Below are positions 828 to 61,550 of a stretch of 64,000 nucleotides of DNA, piece after piece (position 1 is the first letter of the stretch; each line of letters starts with the position of its first letter). The stretch spans positions 831 to 64,830 of the forward strand of contig NZ_PKUB01000003.1 in the NCBI RefSeq assembly GCF_002868845.1, read 5' to 3'. The position numbers and the translations under genes were made by a program. Under the pieces are notes generated by a model. The model was not told the DNA's origin and did not search any database. It worked only from the letters and a program-made list of their open reading frames with translations. The DNA is from Desulfuromonas sp. Lineage in GTDB: Bacteria > Desulfobacterota > Desulfuromonadia > Desulfuromonadales > BM501.

Positions 828-3440
828 ATGATGGCAGCAGCACGGGTAACGACCGGCTTTCAGGGACTGGACGACATTCTGGACGGCCTCCGCATCGGCG
901 ACAACGTGGTCTGGAAGGTCGACTCCATCGACGATTACCGTGACTTTGTCGGCCCCTTCGTCGAAAGTTCGCTGAAGGACGGCAGGAAAGTCGTCTACAT
1001 GCGCTTCGGTCAGCATGCGCCCCTGCTGGAGGAGATCGAAGGGGTGCGCACCTGCGAACTCGACCCCCGCCAGGGCTTCGAGCATTTCGCCACCCGGATT
1101 CACGCCATCATCACCGAGGAGGGCAAGGAGACCTTCTACGTCTTCGACTGCCTCTCCGAACTGCTGTCCGCCTGGGCCACCGACCACATGATCGGCAACT
1201 TCTTTCGCGTCACCTGCCCCTACCTGTTCGAGTTGGACACCGTCGCCTACTTCGCCCTCATCCGCGACCGCCACGCCTTCAAGACCATCGCTCGCATCCG
1301 GGAGACGACCCAGGTCCTTCTCGACGTCCACAACTGTGCCGGAGACATGTACATCCACCCCCTCAAGGTGTGGCAGCGCAACTCCCCCACCATGTTCCTG
1401 CCCCACCTGAGGGACGGAGACGTTTTCACCCCTCTGGCCAACAGCTACGACGCCACCAACCTCCTTACCGACATCCACCGCCGCGACTCGGTCAGCGCCA
1501 GCCGCCAGCTCGACCACTGGCATCGCCTCTTCCTGCAGGCCGAGGAACTCGACCGGAGCGCTTCGGCCGAAGACGAGCAGAAGGCCATGGTCGGCCACCT
1601 CTGCCATCACCTCATCGGGCGCGAGGAGCGGATGCTCTCCCTGGCCCGCGAACACCTCTCCCTGGAGGACCTGCTCAACATCAAGTCGCGCATGGTCGGC
1701 ACGGGGTTCATCGGCGGCAAGACGGTGGGCATGCTGCTGGCACGAAGGATCCTGGAAAAAGACCACCAGCTCGACTGGCAGACTCTGCTGGAGACCCACG
1801 ACTCTTTTTTCGTCGGCTCCAACGTCTACTACGCGTATATCGTCCACAACGGCTGGTGGAAGCTGTACATGCGCCAGAAGACCGAAGAAGGCTACTTCGA
1901 GGCCGCCGCCGAGCTGAAAGAAAAGATGCTCCACGGCACCTTTCCCGAGATGGTCGCCACCGGTTTCCGGCAGATGCTCGAATACTTTGGCCAGTACCCG
2001 ATCATCGTCCGCTCCAGTTCCCTGCTGGAGGACAGTTTCGGCAGCGCCTTCGCCGGCAAGTACGACAGCTTTTTCTGCGCCAGCCAGGGCTCCCTCGAGC
2101 AGCGCTACGAGGCCTTCGCCGACGCGGTGCGCAAGATCTTCGCCAGCACCATGAGCGAGGACGCCCTGACCTACCGAATCCAGCGGGGCCTGGACAAACA
2201 TGACGAGCAGATGGCCCTGCTCGTCCAAAGGGTCTCAGGAGCCTACCGCAAGCACTACTACTTTCCCGAGCTGGCCGGGGTGGGGGTGTCGCACAACACC
2301 TTCGTCTGGGACAAGGACATGGACCCGAAGGCGGGGATGCTGCGACTGGTCTACGGCCTGGGCACCCGGGCGGTTGACCGGGTGGAGGGAGACTACCCGC
2401 GCATCGTCGCCCTCGACGCCCCCCTGAAAAAGCCCCACAAAGGCTTCGAGGACACCCGCCGCTTTGCCCAGAGAGACATCGCCCTGATCAATCTCGAGGA
2501 CAACGCCGTCCAGACCGTCTCCATTCTGAGCCTGGCCAACGACGGGCTCGACCTGCGCCTGGAGCGGTTCGGGATCAAGGACCGTGAAACGATGCAAAAA
2601 CTGGCGGCGCGGGGCCGCAAGGGACAGGAGGTCTGGCTGCTGACATTCGACGAACTGCTCTCCGACGAGGGCTTCACCGGCCTGCTCCGCAACATGCTCA
2701 AGACCATCGAGACGGCCTACGGCTACCCCGTGGACGTGGAGTTCACCGTCAACTTCGCCACCGACGGCAGCCCCAAGATCAACGTCCTGCAGTGCCGCCC
2801 CCTCCAGACCAAGGGCCAGCGGAAAAAGGTCCAGATCCCCGAAAGGGTCGAGGCGAAAAACGTCCTTATCCGCTCGGAGGGGAATTTCATGGGAGGCAAC
2901 ATCTCCCAGCCCCTCAAGTGGGTGATCTGGGTGGATCCGGAGGAGTACACCCGCCTGGCCCTCTCCCAGAAGTACGAGGTCGCCCGCCTGGTGGGCCGCC
3001 TGAACAAGCGGATCGCCGACCGCCAAAAGAGCCCCACGATGCTCCTCGGTCCCGGCCGCTGGGGCACCTCCACCCCGAACCTGGGGGTTCCGGTGACCTT
3101 CTCCGAAATCAGCAACATCACCGCCCTGGGCGAGGTGGCCTTCAGCGCCGGCGGCCTCATGCCGGAACTCTCCTACGGCTCCCACTTCTTCCAGGACCTG
3201 GTCGAGGCCGACATCTTTTATCTGGCCGTTTTCCCGGAAAACAAAAGCTGCCATTTCAACGAAAAGTGGCTGAAAAGCCTGCCGAACAGCCTGGAACCCC
3301 TCATGCCCGCCAGCAGCCACTTCAAGAACGTCGTGAAGGCCTACCGAGTCGAGGAGGAACGACTGCTCCTCGTGGCCGACGTGGTGACCCAGGCCCTGCT
3401 CTGCTACCGGGGCGGCGCTCCCCTGCCGGAACAGAACTGA
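828..3440 (+). CDS. Degenerate KaiC/RecA-like domain fused to PEP-synthase-type ATP-grasp (PEP/pyruvate-binding) domain
   Basis: 870 aa; ATGATG start behind an acaggagacggg ribosome site. Residues 8-240 resemble a KaiC/RecadA-type domain: GFQGLDDILDGLRIGDNVV matches the KaiC entry, and a strand ending in FYVFDCLSELL sits where Walker B would be, but no glycine-rich Walker A follows. Residues about 285-655 are a PPDK_N/PEP-synthase nucleotide-binding domain (GFIGGKTVGMLLARR; RSSSLLEDSFGSAFAGKYDSFF; ending LQCRPLQ). No phosphohistidine swivel domain and no PEP-utilising barrel are visible, so it cannot be a complete PEP synthase. The last 200 residues carry a conserved-looking GPGRWGTSTPNLGVPV segment of unknown role. 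A regulatory or phosphotransfer role is possible, but substrate is unknown. Confidence 0.8.
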   Translation: MMAAARVTTGFQGLDDILDGLRIGDNVVWKVDSIDDYRDFVGPFVESSLKDGRKVVYMRFGQHAPLLEEIEGVRTCELDPRQGFEHFATRIHAIITEEGKETFYVFDCLSELLSAWATDHMIGNFFRVTCPYLFELDTVAYFALIRDRHAFKTIARIRETTQVLLDVHNCAGDMYIHPLKVWQRNSPTMFLPHLRDGDVFTPLANSYDATNLLTDIHRRDSVSASRQLDHWHRLFLQAEELDRSASAEDEQKAMVGHLCHHLIGREERMLSLAREHLSLEDLLNIKSRMVGTGFIGGKTVGMLLARRILEKDHQLDWQTLLETHDSFFVGSNVYYAYIVHNGWWKLYMRQKTEEGYFEAAAELKEKMLHGTFPEMVATGFRQMLEYFGQYPIIVRSSSLLEDSFGSAFAGKYDSFFCASQGSLEQRYEAFADAVRKIFASTMSEDALTYRIQRGLDKHDEQMALLVQRVSGAYRKHYYFPELAGVGVSHNTFVWDKDMDPKAGMLRLVYGLGTRAVDRVEGDYPRIVALDAPLKKPHKGFEDTRRFAQRDIALINLEDNAVQTVSILSLANDGLDLRLERFGIKDRETMQKLAARGRKGQEVWLLTFDELLSDEGFTGLLRNMLKTIETAYGYPVDVEFTVNFATDGSPKINVLQCRPLQTKGQRKKVQIPERVEAKNVLIRSEGNFMGGNISQPLKWVIWVDPEEYTRLALSQKYEVARLVGRLNKRIADRQKSPTMLLGPGRWGTSTPNLGVPVTFSEISNITALGEVAFSAGGLMPELSYGSHFFQDLVEADIFYLAVFPENKSCHFNEKWLKSLPNSLEPLMPASSHFKNVVKAYRVEEERLLLVADVVTQALLCYRGGAPLPEQN

Positions 3441-26011: not shown

Positions 26012-29000
26012 TCAGTCCTTCTCCTGAAAAACGGGAACTTCCAGAGTCGCCGTCGTCACTTTGCCCACGGTCGAGGAAAAGGCAAGCTTGGCGCCCATGT
26101 CCATGGCAATGCGGGAGGAAATGGAGAGACCGAGCCCGCTCCCCCCCTCTTCCCGCCGGGAGGTGTAGAAGGGTTCGGTGATGCGGGGGAGGTCCTCCGG
26201 GGCAATCCCGACCCCCTCGTCCCGGACCTCCAGCACCACCCTGTTCCGGTCTTCGTCGAAACGGGTCCTGATGCGAATCCCCCTGTCCTTCCCCTGCAGT
26301 GCATGATAGGCATTGGTAACCAGGTTGACCGTCACCTGGACCGTCCCCTGAAAATCCCCATACGCCGCGGGCAGCCCCGCGCCATAATCAGCCACGAAAT
26401 GGTCCGTCGCCTTGCGAACGGTACTGCCGGCAAGACGCAGTGCCGCCTCCACCGCCTCGTTCATGTCAAAGGGCCCGAGTTGCTGGGCTCTCGTCGGGCG
26501 GGAGAAGTCCTTCATGTCCTCGACGATGTGAGCGATGCGGCGGGAGGCGTCGAGCATTTCAGATAAGAGGAGCGGGATTTCGTCCCGCAGTTCCGAATAG
26601 GCCCATTCGCCCATAGTAAAGTCGCCATCCTGCCGGTAGCGCTCCTCCAAGGCCTCCAGTCCGACCGGCGCCGCTTTGGCGAGGATCGAGGCGTTGACCC
26701 TGACCAGAGCGTTGGGGTTGTTGATCTAGTGGGCCACCCCGGCGGCCAGTTCGCCGAGGGCCGCCAGGCGGCTCGAACGTTCGGCCTCCTCGCGAAGCCG
26801 AACTTGTTCGGTGATGTCGCTGGCAATCTCGATGACATTGATCACCCCCCCCGCCGAATCCTTCAGGGGAATCGCTTTGAGGTGCCAGCTGCGGCCGTCG
26901 CCCTTGGCAAACGTCCTCTCCACGATCTCTCCGCTGCGGAATGTTTCGACGGCAGGGCAGATGCCACAGGGGGTCGTGCGGTTGTGCCATGCCGAGTAGC
27001 AGGTCTCTCCGCTCAGGAACGCAGTGGAGGATGGGCGGAGGGCCGCGGCCGCCTGGTTGGCCCAGACAACTTCCAGGTCGGGAGAAAGGAGGACGATCAC
27101 GTCGGGGATGCCGTCGAGCAGGGTACGAAACTCTTGCGAAACCCTTTTGAACTCCCCTTCGCTGCGGCGCAGGGATTCTTCGACCTGCTTGCGCTCCGTG
27201 ATGTCCGTGATAATCCCTTCGAGAAAGAGCATCTCCCCGCCTTCGGAAAATATGCCTCTTCCCAACTCTGCAACCCACCGCTGCTTTCCCCCGGCGGTGC
27301 GGATGCGATATTCCAACTGAAAGGGCCGTTTCTTCACAAGGGAAGCCTTGATCATATGCCACACCCTTTCCCGGTCATCCGGGTGAATGATGTGAGCATA
27401 AGACACCTTATGACTGTCGAGCAGGTCTTCGGGCAGATAACCGGTCAGGTCGCGGCAGCCCTCGCTGACAAAATCCATTGTCCAGGCGCGGTCGTTCCTA
27501 CAGCGGTAAGCCATCCCCGGGAGGTTGGCCATCAGCGTGGCGAGCCTTCTTTCACTCTCCCGCACCGCCTCTACGGCCAGCTTGCGTTTGGAGATGTCCC
27601 GGATCGACTCGATTGCGCCAATGACATTCCCCTCGGTATCGTACAGGGGCGAGGCGACTCCCCAGAGATACTTCCCCGCGCGATTCTCCGCGGGAGGCAG
27701 GAAGGCCTCCCCCATGACCCTGCCGTCCTCTGTCCTGGCCACGCCGTAGAAGGTTTCAAGGTCCCGGTCGTCGCTTTCGACCAGGTCGATCAGGATCGGC
27801 CGGCGTTCCCCCCAGAACGGCAGCGCATAGGCATAATCCCCCTGCCCGAGGACCTCCTCCTTGGGCACTCCGGTCATCTCCTCGACGGCCCGGTTCCAGG
27901 CGACCACCCGCTTTTCCCGGTCGATGACGAAGGTGGCGTCGGGGAGGAAGTCGATGATGTCGGCCAGGCGCCGGTGGGTGGTCTGCAGATCTTCTTCAAC
28001 CACCTTGCGCTCGGTGATGTCGAGCGTCGTCCCGACAATCCGCACAGGCTTGCCCGCCGCGTCGCATTGGACTTCGCCCTGCACGTCGAAATGCCGGACG
28101 CTGCCGTCGGCGAGGATGACGCGATGCTCGAGCCGATAGGCGCGCTCCCCGGTCAGGGCCCGATCAAAAGCCCGCTGCATATCCTCTCGGTCATCGGAAT
28201 GGATGAGTTCGAACAATTGCTCGGCGGTAGGCGTAAAGGCGGCTGGCTCCTGCCCGACGAGGCGATACATCTCGTCGGACCAAAAAATATCGCCGGTCTC
28301 GAGGTCGGTATCCCAGCTGCCCACGCGGGCGATCCGCTGGGCTTCCGCCAGGCTGGCCCGGCTCTTCTACAGTTGCCGCCGGTATTCCACGCGCTCGGTG
28401 ATGTCCATGTGGGTGCCGAGCAGGCGCAGCGGCTGCCCCTCCCTGGTACGCTCGACCGCCTCGCAGCAGGAAAGGATGTGCCGGTACGCGCCGTCTTTGG
28501 TCCGCATGCGGAACTCGGCCATGTAGCTCCGGCCGTTGTCGAAAAAATCCTCGGCTGTGGCAATCGCCTGTTCGCGGTCATCCGGGTGCAGCAACTCGGC
28601 CCAGGATTCATAGGAGGCTTCAAGCTCGTCCGACTCGTAACCGAGCATCTGGTAATACCTGGAGCTGAAATAGGTTTCTCCGGTCTCGGTGTTCAAGTCC
28701 CAGACCCCCTGGTTGGAGACCTGCAGGGCCAGGGCCAGGCGCTTCTCGCTCTCCTGCAGGCGCCGTTCCACCTCTTTGCGCTCGGTGATGTCCTGAATCA
28801 TGGCGACGGACCGCATCGGCCCGTGCCCCGCCTGGGGCAGGTAGGCGACCGAAACTTGCCCCCAGACCGTGGATCCGTTCTTGCGCAGATAGCGCTTTTC
28901 CATTTCGATGTGCCGCCGCTGCCCGGCGGTGGCCTCGTCGATCTGCCGCGCGGTCAACTCGAGGTCCTCGGGGTGGGTCACATCGGCCACGGTGAGCTGT

Positions 29001-30223
29001 TGCAACTCGGCCTGGCTGTAGCCGAGGAGCCGGCACAGAGCCGGGTTGACATGATCAATCTTGCTTCCGGCTGAGAAGGTCGCCATGCCGACCGCGGAAG
29101 CCTCGAAAATTGTCCGGAACCACTCCTCGCTTTCGCGCAGCGCCCTTTCGGAGCGCTCGCGGGCAATGGCGCTGCCGAAGATCTCGCCGACGGTCTTGAG
29201 CCGGTTCAGCGTATCGTCATCCCAGGATTTCTCCGCATGGACGCTGTCAAACCCGAGCAGGCCGATCTGCTGTTCGGCCACGTAGATCGGCACCCCTGCC
29301 AGAGTGCGTATGCCATGTGCCTGCCAGAGTTCCTTTTCCGTCTGCGCCTCAGAGGGCAAGTCATCGACCCGCGGTACATAGAGCACCTTCTGGCTCCTGA
29401 TCTTCTCCAGGTACCAGGGCAGATCGCTTAAATTGACGGCCTGCTTCTCCTCCCGGGCTGCTGGAACACCCTCCGCGCACACCTCGTTGGTGCAGGACGC
29501 ATGCATTCCGCCCGGGGTACGCAAGAAGACATAGCTGCGGTCCGCTGCGATAAATTCGCCAAGTTCCTGCAGTGCCAGATCGATGCCCTGATTTATCTCT
29601 TCAGAGGGGAGTTCAACGAACCGGGTTGAGATATTGGCGATGAGTTTCTCGAAAGCCTCTCTGAATTCCAGTTCCCGATTAGCTGTCAGGTACCGCAACC
29701 GTTCCAGACCCATTCGGATGAGCACATCCAGAAAATGGGAGTGGAAGGCGAGGATTTCCTCGACCCGCTCCCGGGAGAAGATCGGCACCCGGCGCAACGC
29801 CTCGAGATAGACCTCCTCGTCGAAGCCGTGCTCCAGGGCCTGCGCCCTGAAGAACGCTTCGTCGGGGGGCTGGTAGAGGAACTGGCCGAGGTACAGGTTG
29901 GCGAGATGGTTGCCTTCGATGATGACCGGCATGCAGGCATCGATCAGGCCGTTTTGGCAGGTGTATTCGATGAAGCCGCAGGAGGGGAGTTCGGCATCGC
30001 CCGTCAGGTAGCGATCGATATAGGCGTCGCTCTCCCGGCAGCGCCGTGCGGTGGCCGGATGGACACGATGGAACTTGGTGCAGATGTCCTGCCAACCCGC
30101 CGCCAGCAGCACCGTCCCGTCGACGTCGATCATCCCCACGGGGATCCCCGCCGCCGCGTACAGACTGTCCACCATCGTCCGCACGGCGGGCAGGTCGATC
30201 AGGTCGGAGAGTCGATATTGCAT
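26012..30223 (-). pseudogene. PocR-GAF-PAS(x6)-histidine kinase gene interrupted by two in-frame TAG codons
   Basis: Start chosen at the ATG 30223 (aagga upstream). One uninterrupted frame of 1403 codons holds TAG at 28369-28367 (codon 619) and at 26728-26726 (codon 1166). Open pieces are 28367..30223, 26726..28324 and 26012..26650. Domains in order: PocR-type sensor (residues 1-185, with CRESD and CGF, CQNG cysteines), GAF (about 195-360), two PAS, then after the first TAG four more PAS, and HisKA-HATPase. The second TAG falls directly after the phospho-acceptor His (AAGVAH, then INNPN), where nearly all kinases have Glu; the first follows YRRQL ahead of KSRASLAEAQRIA. N-box NLVTNAYHAL, G1 DEGVGI and G2 GGSGLGLSI are intact, and no other defect is seen. 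Partner of the NtrC-type gene 2 bp downstream. Confidence 0.85.
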
Positions 30224-36050: not shown

Positions 36051-39000
36051 TTAGTTAAAGGGTCCCTTGGCCTTCTCCTCTTCCGTGGTCGCAGGCTGTG
36101 GCTGGCGAAGGATGCGCTCGAGGCTGGCGAGGGAGTCCCCTCCCTGCTCCACGTACTGGCGCATCGCCTCGAGGCGGCGGCGGATCTCCTCCTCGGCCTG
36201 CTTGCGCAAGGCGGCGGCGGCGGCCTCCAAATCGCCCCTCTCGTCGGCCTTCTCGTCCTCTCCCCGGCCCTGAAGGTCCGACTTGCGGCGCAGGTCCTGA
36301 TACTCTCCGAACTGCTGGAAGTGGGAGGGACCGAAGAACATGATCTCCGGGACAAGGCTGGAGAAGCTCTGCACCCCGCGGATGTCGCGCCCCTCGATAC
36401 GGTAAGCCTCGAGCAGTTCCGGCTCCAGGTCCTGGTAGTTCTGCAGGGGCATGAACATGCGCGACAGGTACTGAAGGACCTTTTCGGTCTTCTTCCGATG
36501 CCCGCCGATAATGACCGAAGCCCCCACCTCCCCCTTCTGCGCGCCCTTGGTCCAGGGGGCCCCGGTGATGCCGAAGTCGTTGAGCACCGGAAGGCAGAGC
36601 AGCACCGAGAGGGTATTGATAGCCAGGGCGAAGCCGGCAGACGGCCCCCCCACGTTGTAGGAGGCCGAGAGCAGCTGGTGGTGCAGGGTATACCCCTCCA
36701 GGTAGCGGCCGACCAGGCGGAAGACGTTGATATCGGGCTGCAGCGACTGCAGATAGTTCTCCACCAGGGTCAGAGCCTCCTGGGCGCTCTGCTGAGTCAT
36801 CTGCACCGCCAGGTCGAGTTCCGCCGCCCCGGGGGCTGAGGTGGAGACCGCCCCGGTGACAACGATCTTCTCCGGGTGGACCCGGTAGACGAGGGAAGAA
36901 GCGATGGGCAGCAGCACCCCGCTGGTGTCGTTGGCTCCGACTCCGACCACGAACCCCACCTGGGGCTCGCGGGACAGCTCGGTCTCAAGGAACTCGTCAA
37001 GCTGCTGCTTCCCCTTGCGGGTGGGGCTGCTGGCGATTTGCTGGCGGGCGCTATGGAGGTGCCAGGCCGTGATGGGGTGCTCGCCCTTGGCCCGCGCCCT
37101 GCCGAGCCTCTCGGCGACCGTGTCGAGGCAGGCCAGCAGGGCCTCCTCGCCCTGGCGGGCCCGGGCGGCCAGCTCTCCCTCTCCGGCGGTCCCCTCCAGG
37201 AGCCCCTGCAGGATCTTGTAGTTAAAGCGCACGAAACGGGCCCGATCCTCCTCCGGCTTGTCCACATCGTGCATCAGCTTGTCGAGGACCTCGATCTCGG
37301 TGGAGCGCTGAGAGCGCAGTTTCTCGGCGAAGGCGGTGAAGTCCGCCGGGGTCTCGCAGATCCCCCGCGCCTGGCGCAGCATCTCTTCGAAGGTAAGCCC
37401 CTCGTCCAGAGGGATCCCGACCAGTTCCTTGCGCATGATGCTCAAGGCGTCCTCGTCGCGCATGTGACCGATGACGTTGAGCACTTTCAGGCGCTTGGAG
37501 CGGATCAGGGCCGGGTCGAGAATATCGAGACGGTTGGTCGTCAGAACGGTGAAGACCCGGTTCAGGGTGGACTCGCCGTCGATAATGGAGAGGAACTTGT
37601 TGGTGACCTTGTCGTAGGGGCTGCCGCCCTGCTGAGAGCGGCGCGGCGCCACCGCGTCCCCCTCGTCGAAGAAGACCATGGCGGGCGAGAGCATCTTGGC
37701 GATGTCGTAGACCTTCTCCAGGTTCTCCACCATCCCCTCGACCGGCCGTACCGGGTCGGAGAGGTGGCCGAGGTGGACCGCCAGGTCCTGCACGTCCGTG
37801 TTGTCCCCGAGCCAGGAGCGCACCATGTAGGTCTTGCCCGAGCCCGGCGGGCCGGTGAGGACGACCCCCTTCTCCTCGCTGACGTGATAGTAAAGGGAGT
37901 TGTTGACCATCTCGGAGAACTCGTTCTTTATCCCGCCGATGTAGTCCTCCCAGCGGACGCCGCGGTCCATGTGCCCGACCACGTCCTTGAAGAGAGAGCC
38001 GTAGACGTTGCGCGCCACCTCCTTGAGGGCGTCGCGAACCAGGAGCTGGTCATCCAGATACCCGGGGCGGAAATCGCCCTTGATGGCAAGCAGAGAGTCG
38101 ATGAGACGGCGAACGTAGGCGGGGAGAATGCGCAGGCTGAGCTCCCGGAAGATGGGATAGAGTCGCTCCACAGCAGCCTCGAGGGCGGTCTCGGAGACGA
38201 CCAGCGGCCCGGTCCCCTCGCCGAAGGTGCAGTTGTTGCGCTTGAGCTCCATGCGCACCACCTCACGCAGGTTGGCCGGGTCCTTCCACAGGTCGCCGAT
38301 GTCGATGACCAGGCCCCGCTCCACGAAGCGCTGGTAAATGGCCGGGTCGAACTGCTCCGGCTGATCGGTGGTGGCGATCAGCAGGCAATCACGCTTGCCC
38401 TGGGTGATCTCGTCGATGAGGATGTTGGCGGCGTCGACGAGGGTGCTCTGCTGCGCCTTGACGCTGCTCATCTGGTCGGGGCGGCCGAAGGCGGAATGGG
38501 CCTCCTCCAGGTGGCGGATGCAGGTGTTGCGCGGGTCGCCCATCGCCTTGCGCAGGTAGTTGCCCGGCTCGCCGGCCCAGGCGGTCTGGTAGTCGTTGGG
38601 AGTGATCATGGCGTGATCGACCCAAACACCTTCCTCCTCCAGGGAGGAGAGGGCCTGGCCGATCCGTTCCCGAAACAGGTACTTGACCCCGGGAAGCCTG
38701 GAAATAAGCCTCAGCCGTTCGATCTTGCGGCGGCGCTCCAGGCGCACCGCCAGCTCCGGGTCGACGTCCTCGAGCTTGTACCAGAAGGGCAGCCCGGCCA
38801 TGACGTCGTCCTTCTTGGCCTGCAGGTCGATGAGGGGGCGCACCTCGGCGGCGAAGATCGCCCGCTCCACCGCCTCCTTTACGGTGGAGCTCTTGCCCCC
38901 GCCGGTCGGGCCGACCACCAGGACCAGGGGAGCCCGGGGGACGGTCGGGTCCTCTGTGTAGCCTTTGAGAATGTGGGCGTGGTAGAGCTTGCGGAAGATC

Positions 39001-39398
39001 TCGAGAAAGGATTCGGGGACGAAGATGTCCGAAGTCTGCTCGACCAGCAGGTAGAGCAGGTACTGGTAGTCGTGCCAGTCGAGTTCGCGGGAGAGGATCT
39101 TGTCCCAGGCCGCCCGGGCGTTGTGCGAGCCCGAGATCTCGAAGCGGCGCCGCCAGTCGCTGAGCAGCTCGGGGTCGCGCAGGATCGTGAAGCTGCGCTC
39201 GCCCGGCTTGAACAGGCGCTTCACCCAGCCGCGCAAAAAGGAAAGGGGGGTGCGGGTCGGGTCGTACTGGCGCAGCCGGCGCAAAACGAAGAGCTTGGTC
39301 TCGAAGCTCCAGCTCTCGGCCAGGGCCTCGATCTGCCTGATCCGCTTTTCCGAAAGGCGGATATAGACCGGCCGTCTAGTCTTTCGTGGTCGGGCCAT
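36051..39398 (-). CDS. Double-AAA+ protease with C-terminal Lon-type (S16) domain
   Basis: 1115 aa from the ATG at 39398 (a GTG at 39425 is an alternative). The N-terminal 150 residues are basic and helical. AAA+ domain 1 has Walker A GPTGGGKSS (about residue 163) and a sensor-like DCLLIATTDQPEQF; AAA+ domain 2 has Walker A GPPGSGKTY (about 515), Walker B AMVFFDEGDAV (about 573) and TVLTTNRLDILDPALIRSKR. The last part carries the Lon protease dyad: Ser in NVGGPSAGFALAI (about 918) and Lys in IIGGHRKKTEKV (about 963). A coiled, charged tail ends the protein. It should unfold and degrade proteins using ATP. It overlaps the upstream SPFH gene by 23 bp, so the two are co-translated and may form a membrane-tethered protease complex. 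Confidence 0.85.
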   Translation of the reverse strand: MARPRKTRRPVYIRLSEKRIRQIEALAESWSFETKLFVLRRLRQYDPTRTPLSFLRGWVKRLFKPGERSFTILRDPELLSDWRRRFEISGSHNARAAWDKILSRELDWHDYQYLLYLLVEQTSDIFVPESFLEIFRKLYHAHILKGYTEDPTVPRAPLVLVVGPTGGGKSSTVKEAVERAIFAAEVRPLIDLQAKKDDVMAGLPFWYKLEDVDPELAVRLERRRKIERLRLISRLPGVKYLFRERIGQALSSLEEEGVWVDHAMITPNDYQTAWAGEPGNYLRKAMGDPRNTCIRHLEEAHSAFGRPDQMSSVKAQQSTLVDAANILIDEITQGKRDCLLIATTDQPEQFDPAIYQRFVERGLVIDIGDLWKDPANLREVVRMELKRNNCTFGEGTGPLVVSETALEAAVERLYPIFRELSLRILPAYVRRLIDSLLAIKGDFRPGYLDDQLLVRDALKEVARNVYGSLFKDVVGHMDRGVRWEDYIGGIKNEFSEMVNNSLYYHVSEEKGVVLTGPPGSGKTYMVRSWLGDNTDVQDLAVHLGHLSDPVRPVEGMVENLEKVYDIAKMLSPAMVFFDEGDAVAPRRSQQGGSPYDKVTNKFLSIIDGESTLNRVFTVLTTNRLDILDPALIRSKRLKVLNVIGHMRDEDALSIMRKELVGIPLDEGLTFEEMLRQARGICETPADFTAFAEKLRSQRSTEIEVLDKLMHDVDKPEEDRARFVRFNYKILQGLLEGTAGEGELAARARQGEEALLACLDTVAERLGRARAKGEHPITAWHLHSARQQIASSPTRKGKQQLDEFLETELSREPQVGFVVGVGANDTSGVLLPIASSLVYRVHPEKIVVTGAVSTSAPGAAELDLAVQMTQQSAQEALTLVENYLQSLQPDINVFRLVGRYLEGYTLHHQLLSASYNVGGPSAGFALAINTLSVLLCLPVLNDFGITGAPWTKGAQKGEVGASVIIGGHRKKTEKVLQYLSRMFMPLQNYQDLEPELLEAYRIEGRDIRGVQSFSSLVPEIMFFGPSHFQQFGEYQDLRRKSDLQGRGEDEKADERGDLEAAAAALRKQAEEEIRRRLEAMRQYVEQGGDSLASLERILRQPQPATTEEEKAKGPFN

Positions 39399-40338
39399 AG
39401 GGCGGCTTCCGGTCTTTGCGGGCACCCGCGGTCGGAGCCGGCAGCGTCACGGGGGGCGCCGATCCCGTGGTGTTGAGCACGAAGGTGTTCTGCCCCTGCT
39501 GGTTCTTCTCGTAGGCGGTGGCCCACTTCTGCTGGTTGAGGAAATCGAAGAGGTAGCGGTCGCTGTCGGCGCTGAGGCCGAGGGAGCGGCGGAAATCGCT
39601 GATCGACTCGCTGTAGGCCGCGTAGAGCTTGCGGGTCCGGCTCGCCTCGAGGTCGGCGGCGTAGTTCTCCGCCTCGGCGATGAGTTCGCGGCGCTTCTTC
39701 TCCTCGCTGGCCGCGGCCAGGGTGTCGCCGAAGCGGGTGTCGCGCAACACGAATGAGACGACCTCGATGCCGTACTTCTCCTCCAGGGTCGGGCCCCCCG
39801 CGTTGATCGGGCGATCCTTGAGATCCGAGAAAATCTCCTCCTTAATCGTCTCGCGCCCGGAGATCAGCTCGTCGATGGTGCGGCTCTGCATGACGTCATT
39901 GACGATGCCGTCAAAGTCGTTCTGCAGAAGGCTCTGGGGGAGTTTGTTCTCGATCCCCCAGCGCTCCAGGTCCCTGATGCGGTAGGTGAGCATGGCGCTC
40001 GTCCAGAGGGCGACGTTCCCCTTGGAGATGATGCGCTGGGTCTCCGGCTGGCCCCCCAGATAAAGCTCCTGGTTCATCAGCGGCACCTCCAACTCCAGCC
40101 GGGTGAAGAAGGGTAGCCGCCCGTGCCAGCCGACGTCCTCCACCACCCGCCTCTCGCCGGAGAGGGTCTCGACGATCACCGCGTAGTTGCGGCGGACCTT
40201 GTAGATCGTCTTGGTGGCATAGACCAGAACCACCCCGTAATAAATCGCCCCCCCCACCAGGAGAGTGGAAAAGACCCGGCGCAGGAAAGTCTTGATTCTG
40301 GCCCGCTGCAGCAGTCGAAATCGTTGTTCCGGTTCCAC
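39376..40338 (-). CDS. SPFH/prohibitin-like membrane protein
   Basis: About 320 aa. One N-terminal membrane segment (VFSTLLVGGAIYYGVVLVY) precedes the SPFH/Band-7 core: YAVIVETLSGERRVVEDVGWHGRLPFFTRLELEVPLMNQ and LTYRIRDLERW, SRTIDELISGRETIKEEIF, GIEVVSFVLRDTRF, then a helical tail of alanine and glutamate (EEKKRRELIAEAENYAADLEA). GTG at 40338 has ggggg upstream and is preferred; GTG 40344 and TTG 40368 are alternatives, but 40368 overlaps the promoter box. Prohibitin/HflKC proteins scaffold membrane proteases. Its stop lies inside the Lon-like gene, which supports a functional pair. Confidence 0.82.
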   Translation of the reverse strand: MEPEQRFRLLQRARIKTFLRRVFSTLLVGGAIYYGVVLVYATKTIYKVRRNYAVIVETLSGERRVVEDVGWHGRLPFFTRLELEVPLMNQELYLGGQPETQRIISKGNVALWTSAMLTYRIRDLERWGIENKLPQSLLQNDFDGIVNDVMQSRTIDELISGRETIKEEIFSDLKDRPINAGGPTLEEKYGIEVVSFVLRDTRFGDTLAAASEEKKRRELIAEAENYAADLEASRTRKLYAAYSESISDFRRSLGLSADSDRYLFDFLNQQKWATAYEKNQQGQNTFVLNTTGSAPPVTLPAPTAGARKDRKPPYGPTTKD

Positions 40339-45373: not shown

Positions 45374-46240
45374 TCAAACGCCGGGGATGTGGTGATCGAG
45401 CAGAAAGCGGGCGATGCTCCGCTTGGGGGGCAGGGACGGCAGGTCATCGACGGGAAACCAGCGGGCGTCCTCCAGTTCCTTCTCCTCCACCTGCACCTCG
45501 CCGCCGTCGTACTCGGCGACGAAGCCCGCCATGAGCTGGCTCGGGAAGGGCCAGCACTGGCTGCCGACGTAGCGGACGTCCCGGATCCGAATCCCCGTCT
45601 CCTCCAGCACCTCCCGCGCCGCCGCCTCCTCCAGGGACTCGCCGAACTCCAGGAACCCCGCCACGAGGCTGTAGCGCCCGGGCGGCCACTCGGCCTTGCG
45701 GGTGAGGAGGACCTCTCCGGGGCGTCGCACCAGGACGATGGCGCAGGGGTGGATGTGGGGGTAGTGGAGGGCGCCGCAGGGGAGGCAGCTCTTGCCCCAC
45801 TCGCCGGCGATGGGCTCGAGGGCGCCGCCGCAGCGGGAGCAGAAGCGGCTGCCGCGCTCCCAGTGCAGGACCTGGCCGGCGACACCGCCGAGGGAGAGGA
45901 GATCGACCGGCAGGTCGGGCCGGGAAGCGAGGATGTCGCGGGCGACAAGGCCCGGCGGGAGGCCGGTCGCCCGGGACAGGGCCAGGGCGCGGCAGGGGCG
46001 GCCGTCCCAGGTGCCGAGGCGGACCGCCTTCGGCTCCAGGGCCCGGAGCTCCTCCGGCAGGAGGCCGAAGGAAAGTCCGGGGGGCTCTCCCTCGCGGACC
46101 AGCAATTCGGTGCCGCGCAGGATCGCCCAGACCCCCGCCTCGCCCCCGTCGGGGCCGGGAGGGAGCAGGCTCAGGCGTTCCTTCACGCACTCGCTGTTGA
46201 AGGGAAGGAAAAGGGGGGACGGGAAGGTCTCGGGGAGCAC
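45374..46240 (-). CDS. nudC: NAD(+) diphosphatase-type NUDIX hydrolase
   Basis: 288 aa from a GTG at 46240. Four cysteines form a zinc ribbon (FCSRCGGALEPIAGEWGKSC, LPC) near residue 134. The NUDIX box runs from GFLEFGESLEEAAAREVLEETGI (about residue 195) and the NudC-type SQCWPFPSQLM sequence follows directly. NudC cleaves NADH, NAD and NAD-capped RNA. It starts 5 bp after the end of a second NUDIX gene, so the pair is probably co-transcribed. Confidence 0.92.
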   Translation of the reverse strand: MLPETFPSPLFLPFNSECVKERLSLLPPGPDGGEAGVWAILRGTELLVREGEPPGLSFGLLPEELRALEPKAVRLGTWDGRPCRALALSRATGLPPGLVARDILASRPDLPVDLLSLGGVAGQVLHWERGSRFCSRCGGALEPIAGEWGKSCLPCGALHYPHIHPCAIVLVRRPGEVLLTRKAEWPPGRYSLVAGFLEFGESLEEAAAREVLEETGIRIRDVRYVGSQCWPFPSQLMAGFVAEYDGGEVQVEEKELEDARWFPVDDLPSLPPKRSIARFLLDHHIPGV

Positions 46241-46245
46241 CGCTC

Positions 46246-46767
46246 TCAGCCCTCCCCGGACCCGGCATAAAGGAGGAGGGCCAGCTGGGTCTTGCCGTCG
46301 GGGATCTCACCGGCCCGCACCATGCGCAGCGCCTCCTCGAGGGGGAGGGTGAAGACCTCGATGTATTCGTCGGGCTCGGGGGCCCGGGGGACGGGGCTCA
46401 GATCCCGGGCCAGGTAGAGGTGGACCACCTCGTCGCAGAAGCCGACGGCGGTGAGCATCTACCCGAGCTTCTCCACCCTGGCGGCGCGGTAGCCGACCTC
46501 CTCCACGAGTTCGCGGCGCACGCAGGCCTCGGGAGACTCGTCCGGCTCGAGGCGGCCGGCGGGGATCTCCACGACCATGCCGCCTCCGGCGGGGCGAAAC
46601 TGGCGGATCAGGACGACCTCGCCGTTCTCCAGCAGGGGCAGGACGGCGGCCCCGCCGGGATGGCGGACGATCTCGAAGTCGGCCTCGCGCCCGTCGGGCA
46701 GGCGGTGCCCCTCGATGGCGAGGGAGACGATCCGGCCGCTGAATATCTCCTCCTTCCTGACCTTCAT
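46246..46767 (-). pseudogene. ADP-ribose pyrophosphatase-like NUDIX gene interrupted by in-frame TAG
   Basis: Frame from ATG 46767 (ggagg upstream) to TGA 46246, 173 codons, with one internal TAG at 46461-46459 (codon 103). Pieces before and after are in the same frame: EIPAGRLEPDESPEACVRRELVEEVGY holds the NUDIX box, then YRAARVEKLG, the TAG, then MLTAVGFCDEVVHLYLARDL, a NudF-type continuation. Glu (GAG) is a plausible original residue. The first 102 residues alone would lack the C-terminal strands. It is followed 5 bp later by nudC. Real mutation, readthrough or sequencing error cannot be separated here. Confidence 0.8.
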
Positions 46768-60167: not shown

Positions 60168-60809
60168 ATGAAGCCTCTTGAAAAAAAAGGAGCGTCCACC
60201 GCTTCCGGAAAGACCCGGGGAATAGTCCTCGCCTCCGCCTCCCCCCGACGCCGGGAGCTGCTCGCCTCTGTCGGCATCGAATTCGACGTGGTGCCGAGCC
60301 GGGCCCCCGAGGAAGAGTTGCCCGGGGAGACACCGGAGCAGCACGTGATACGATTGAGCAGAGACAAAGCCCGTGAGGTCGCATCCCGGGACGACGTGGC
60401 GGGGCGCTGGTTCATCGGCAGCGACACGATCGTGCTGCGCGACGGCGACATCCTCGGCAAGCCGAAGGACGCCCCGGAGGCGGCGGACATGCTGCGCTCC
60501 CTCTCCGGGCGCAGCCACCGGGTGCTGTCCGGCTACGCCGTCCATGACCGCCACGACGGCGGCTGCGTGGCCGGCGCGGCGGTCACGGCAGTGCGGTTCA
60601 AGGAGTTGACAGAGCAAGAAATCGCAGGGTACATTGCCACGGGCGAGCCCTTCGACAAGGCCGGCTCCTACGCAATCCAGGGCATCGGCGCCTTTATGGT
60701 CCTCGCCATCGAGGGAAGCTACACCAACGTCGTCGGCCTGCCCCTGTGCGAGGTGGTGGAGGTGCTCGAGAACCTCGGGGCCGCCAGACTCTTCGCCGGC
60801 GCCCCCTAG
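60168..60809 (+). CDS. maf: Maf-type nucleotide pyrophosphatase
   Basis: 213 aa. The signature LASASPRRRELLASVGIEF, SDTIVLRDGDILGKPKD (catalytic Asp), and EPFDKAGSYAIQGIGAFMV are typical of Maf, which hydrolyses nucleoside triphosphates such as dTTP, UTP or modified ones. The N-terminal 15 residues are a basic extension beyond the usual start and the true start may be downstream. Confidence 0.93.
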   Translation: MKPLEKKGASTASGKTRGIVLASASPRRRELLASVGIEFDVVPSRAPEEELPGETPEQHVIRLSRDKAREVASRDDVAGRWFIGSDTIVLRDGDILGKPKDAPEAADMLRSLSGRSHRVLSGYAVHDRHDGGCVAGAAVTAVRFKELTEQEIAGYIATGEPFDKAGSYAIQGIGAFMVLAIEGSYTNVVGLPLCEVVEVLENLGAARLFAGAP

Positions 60810-60858
60810 GGCAGGGCCCTTTTCCTGCCCTCAAGTCCATATCCTGAGCGGTGACGCC

Positions 60859-61550
60859 ATGTCCATCGAATCGAACATACGGGCCATCAATGACCGCATC
60901 ACAGCCGCCTGTGCCCGCGCCGGGCGCTACCCGGCTTCGGTACGCCTCGTTGCGGTTTCCAAAACCAAACCGGCGGAAATGGTCGAAGAGGCCTATATCG
61001 CGGGCCAGACCCTGTTCGGAGAAAGCTACGCCCAGGAATTTTCCGCCAAGACCGAACAGGTGGGAGCCCCGGTGGAGTGGCACTTCGTCGGCGGACTGCA
61101 GACCAACAAGGTCAAGTACCTGCGGGGCAGGACGGCCCTGATCCACTCGGTGGACCGCCTCTCCCTCGCCAAGGAGATCGACCGCCAGTGGGGCAAACTC
61201 GAACGGAAGGCCTCGGTTCTGATTCAACTCAACCTGGGGGGGAAGCGACCAAGGCAGGCGCCGGGGAGGCCGACCTGGGAACCCTCGTGCGCCATGTATC
61301 CGCTCTGCCCAACATCCGCATCTGCGGCCTGATGACCCTCCCCCCCTACTGCCCCGACCCCGAGGAGGTGCGCCCCTACTTCCGCCGGCTGCGGGAGCTG
61401 GCGGCCGGCGTAGCCGCCCTTGCCATCCCCGGGGTGGAGATGGCGGAGCTCTCCATGGGCATGAGTCACGACTTCGAGGTCGCCGTGGAGGAGGGTGCCA
61501 CCCTGGTGCGGGTCGGCACCGCGATCTTCGGCGAGAGGATCAGGAGATGA
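60859..61550 (+). pseudogene. yggS: YggS-family PLP homeostasis protein gene with a frameshift in a G-run
   Basis: Frame 1 from ATG 60859 encodes SNIRAINDRITAACARAGR, VAVSKTKPAEMVEEAY (PLP Lys), GESYAQEF, WHFVGGLQTNKVKYL and ends LIQLNLGG; it then runs off at 61332. The homologous continuation (EATKAGAGEADLG, then ICGLMTLPPYCPDPEEVRPYF, MGMSHDFEVAVEEGATLVRVGTAIFG) is in the other frame and stops at 61550. The switch occurs in a run of seven G (61236-61242); eight G would restore the frame. Loss of one G in a homopolymer may be genuine or a sequencing artefact. Precedes the SNF symporter by 4 bp. Confidence 0.88.

Follow-up and report, generated by a model that had tools for sequence, protein, structure and literature searches.

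The in-frame TAG that interrupts a NudF-like NUDIX hydrolase gene in the 64 000-nucleotide stretch of DNA analysed here (the window) is very probably a G:C>T:A consensus error of a draft assembly that is prone to errors, one of about 100 such sites by extrapolation, and would then be absent from the gene of the living cell. The genome behind the window is a 3.70 Mb draft in 56 contigs with a completeness of 99.84%. Our preference for sequencing error follows from the finding that some 100 false-looking stops are to be expected across this genome and that essential genes are included amongst those interrupted.

The NUDIX frame comprises 173 codons on the minus strand and reads VEKLG, then the TAG, then MLTAVGFCDEVVHLYLA. 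The match to the Pfam family PF00293 (NUDIX) runs across the stop, covering residues 38–147 with an E value of 9.6e-20 and a score of 71.4 bits against a curated cut-off of 21.1. Frame and domain match together confirm the in-frame TAG that a sequence-only reading of this DNA had described. The gene is matched in 123 of the 135 other genomes of the order Desulfuromonadales, and nearly all of the orthologues listed are free of an internal stop. The column occupied by the TAG is glutamate in 18 of 29 fetched orthologues, the ten closest being included; the remaining fetched orthologues carry Lys, Ser, Thr, Asp, Gly or Asn. The suggestion, also made in that reading, that GAG would fit the site is thus borne out. 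A second NUDIX-domain gene (45419–45751, minus strand) almost adjoins the interrupted one and is free of stops inside. Elsewhere in the window two very long open frames lie opposed over one stretch (36051–39425, minus strand, and 36876–39476, plus strand), one of which is presumably a shadow frame of high-GC sequence.

Table 1. Interrupted genes of the window and the sites at which they are interrupted (positions are those of the window)
Feature	Position	Strand	Remarks
Multi-PAS/GAF histidine kinase gene, two in-frame TAGs	26012..30223	-	PAS, HisKA and HATPase_c domains
TAG in frame within the H-box, at the codon following the phospho-accepting His	26726..26728	-	Relatives have Glu (GVAHEINNPN)
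In-frame TAG in the linker between PAS domains	28367..28369	-	One weak relative has Asp; no agreed residue
NudF-like NUDIX hydrolase gene (ADP-ribose pyrophosphatase type), interrupted	46246..46767	-	Pfam NUDIX match across the stop; orthologues at most 78% identical
In-frame TAG in the NUDIX gene	46459..46461	-	Most relatives carry Glu here
Gene for a yggS-like PLP-binding protein, broken by a frameshift	60634..61550	+	First frame to 61332, second from 61077
Run of seven G at the yggS frame switch, homopolymer-type indel	61236..61242	+	

The histidine kinase gene of the window, with its two in-frame TAGs, has a single full-length match in the order, namely itself. A TAG that appeared to lie inside the kinase homologue of G135 was rejected, being the normal terminal stop of that gene. 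The TAG at position 1469 of contig C3 (window position 639) was considered as a fourth case and likewise rejected, since a glutamate dehydrogenase gene most likely ends there naturally.

Stops inside genes were sought with a model of coding potential able to continue past stop codons, after which each candidate was read by eye; the sample of 1.67 Mb consisted of the contig that holds the window and 80 stretches. About 46 in-gene stops were found (31 TAG, 12 TAA and three TGA), which extrapolates to about 100 for the whole genome. Many of these were called in-gene from their coding potential and by inspection; homologues were consulted for more than half, not always successfully. When 400 kb from a complete relative (G105) were scanned in the same manner, gene ends alone appeared and no in-gene stops. 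The frames that flank the stops are intact and show normal codon use. The sequence-only reading had advised setting in-frame TAG against TAA and TGA, and the ratio of 31:12:3 means that all three kinds interrupt genes. At about position 3188 of stretch L228, a gene pair judged by eye resembles the end of hgcA with an hgcB-like ferredoxin gene after it (mercury methylation).

The interrupted genes include several that the organism would need. One copy each of the genes for leucyl-tRNA synthetase (LeuRS), aspartokinase and GcvPB was found in the genome, and each of these copies holds an internal TAG. The aspartyl-tRNA synthetase (AspRS) gene has an internal TAA at a glutamate that is conserved across the four solved structures shown, and the CTP synthase gene has an internal TAG where homologues carry serine; an internal TAA is found in GyrA and an internal TAG in KdsA. 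Amongst these interrupted genes, copies were counted for LeuRS, aspartokinase and GcvPB. The LeuRS site lies at about position 10250 of contig C46 and the AspRS site at about position 32530 of contig C13. The stops strike essential genes (LeuRS, aspartokinase, AspRS, GyrA, CTP synthase) regardless of function, and no cell could survive with the genes in this form.

The residues replaced follow a narrow pattern. Where relatives agree, TAG stands for glutamate in LeuRS, a UvrA-like protein, UvrB, a DHH protein, GcvPB, an AMP ligase, the NUDIX hydrolase and the H-box of the kinase, and for serine in a creatininase, MmdA and CTP synthase. TAA stands for glutamate in an alcohol dehydrogenase (ADH), an ExeA-like protein and AspRS, and mostly so in MutS2. 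For TGA the residue is glycine, as seen in one homologue of a class IV aminotransferase and in some homologues of TruD. Glutamine, tryptophan and arginine do not occur at any site on whose residue relatives agree; CAG codons are nearly as common in this genome as GAG codons (6608 versus 8524). As judged from these alignments, the pattern at the sites fixed by relatives is that of G:C>T:A substitutions (G>T or C>A).

If all changes occurred at equal rates, G>T or C>A would be expected to account for about 46% of new stops, so that an exceptionless run of such changes at about 14 resolved sites is unlikely by chance (about two in 100 000 by simple arithmetic). In a few cases, those of an S8 protease (Thr), KdsA (Thr) and GyrA (Asp), one G>T or C>A change would not lead from the residue of the relatives to the stop, but only distant homologues were compared there. 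TAG is also over-represented, since 31:12:3 is to be set against roughly 45:35:20% expected from even G>T/C>A change and the codon use. Amongst invariant columns, changes of the G>T/C>A type show no clear excess, numbering 23 of 3610 (six stops included) compared with 91 of 19 808 in relatives, and power is low, with only about five extra expected; radical missense changes of the same type number two of 3610 compared with two of 19 808, again with low power.

The assembly is rough in other respects. Short runs of N number 38 in the 1.67 Mb, mostly a single N, compared with none in the control. In the window the two frames of the yggS-like gene match positions 4–126 and 126–218 of the Ala_racemase_N profile, and elsewhere the asparaginyl-tRNA synthetase (AsnRS) gene is frameshifted near a G run. 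A proxy for frameshifts gave 39 events in 870 kb compared with eight in 400 kb of the control, some of the events being owed to the N runs.

Errors of base substitution in the consensus would have turned GAG into TAG, GAA into TAA, GGA into TGA and TCG into TAG, and the cause may have been the oxidation of guanine, or the calling of a consensus at low coverage, when the DNA was sequenced. A C-to-A sequencing error with glutamate as the original residue had been put forward in the sequence-only reading, and the residue pattern, the interruption of essential genes and the spread over the genome all support it. The exception is the sequence context that was offered with it. All three TAGs of the window are indeed followed by A, giving the 'tct' noted on the plus strand, but the feature does not extend to the genome: A follows eight of the 31 in-gene TAGs, close to the 21% expected from what follows GAG codons, and the context in the window is thus attributable to chance.

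The alternative raised in the same reading, an amber suppressor of the pyrrolysine type or a Glu/Gln tRNA with a CUA anticodon, would have TAG read as glutamate or another residue by suppression or partial reassignment. The window holds three in-gene TAGs, two of them at glutamate positions of relatives, and TAG is the commonest of the in-gene stops; these observations would suit such a mechanism. Nevertheless, a genome-wide search with RF00005 gave 46 hits (45 over the cut-off), amongst which pylT did not appear; the genes read by ARAGORN have no CUA, only the usual anticodons and one tRNA-Sec, and no PylS exceeded the cut-off genome-wide (best score with TIGR02367 26.8 bits versus 178.15). 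TAG replaces conserved serine as well as glutamate, relatives lack TAG at these sites and genes are also interrupted by TAA and TGA. A TAG-only suppressor would be of no help to AspRS or GyrA, since both are interrupted by TAA, and in its simple form suppression is already refuted by these two sites. The point made earlier against reassignment, that TAG serves as an ordinary gene end, also holds well beyond the window: TAG closes 183 of 694 open reading frames of at least 300 residues (26%) compared with 75 of 356 (21%) in the control, some shadow frames being counted, and so is still a terminator. Suppression is accordingly a very improbable reading of the NUDIX stop. The tRNA-Sec gene lies on contig C56 (stretch L052, 496–591), and its presence suggests that some genes of the organism probably use UGA for selenocysteine. 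As improbable as suppression is a bacterium that tolerates about 100 real nonsense codons, TAG, TAA and TGA alike and within essential genes as well, by a general read-through free of suppressor tRNAs.

Two further readings would place the stops in the DNA itself. One is a mutator lineage that has lost the repair of 8-oxoguanine and accumulates G:C>T:A changes alongside ongoing gene decay. Defects in MutM or MutY give G:C>T:A changes, the pattern seen here, and the sole fpg/mutM match found is a remnant that lacks most of the gene; the query was an E. coli sequence, such that another copy may have been missed. In the remnant (contig C18, about 123.8 kb; stretch L393, about 1400–1680) an MPELPEVETT start and a C-terminal zinc finger lie within about 275 bases, and the missing middle is either a real deletion or a misassembly. 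Against this reading, mutY is present and open, the N runs and homopolymer frameshifts point to assembly error, and the interruption of the single LeuRS copy found, of AspRS, GyrA and CTP synthase should be lethal. With the only LeuRS copy found interrupted, a real mutator with decay is a weak rival, and we regard it as unlikely. The other reading, that these few genes are ordinary pseudogenes decayed through normal mutation, draws on the possibility that the cell could do without a histidine kinase of the PAS type or a NUDIX hydrolase. It does not account for the interruption of essential genes, for flanking frames that are intact with normal codon use, or for the absence amongst residue-resolved sites of the usual products of transition (Gln CAG/CAA, Trp TGG and Arg CGA to stop), and we consider it very improbable.

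Were the stops real, they would depart strikingly from the genetic code. Taken as artefacts of the consensus, they provide a useful warning, in that a completeness of 99.84% and an assembly of 56 contigs gave no hint of about 100 false stops. Claims of recoding made from single draft genomes should first be met by tabulating TAA and TGA and by inspecting essential genes.

Pyrrolysine decoding of UAG resembles the present case in placing UAG in frame inside genes; here, however, there is neither a PylS over the cut-off nor a CUA tRNA, TAA and TGA are affected as well, and the residues replaced are glutamate and serine across many unrelated families. Mutators deficient in MutM or MutY share the G:C>T:A substitutions, and an fpg remnant is present in this genome; they differ in that this genome retains mutY and has a stop inside the one LeuRS copy found. 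Homopolymer indel errors of draft assemblies are matched by the frameshifts at G runs in yggS and AsnRS, and account for those frameshifts but not for the in-frame stops. A parallel to the stops themselves is found in sequencing artefacts of 8-oxoguanine. In PMC12390751, oxidative damage is described as introducing G>T changes, with damage ex vivo giving strand-asymmetric mismatches. The substitution class is the same, G>T (C>A); the variants treated there are seen in reads, whereas those reported here would be fixed in a consensus.
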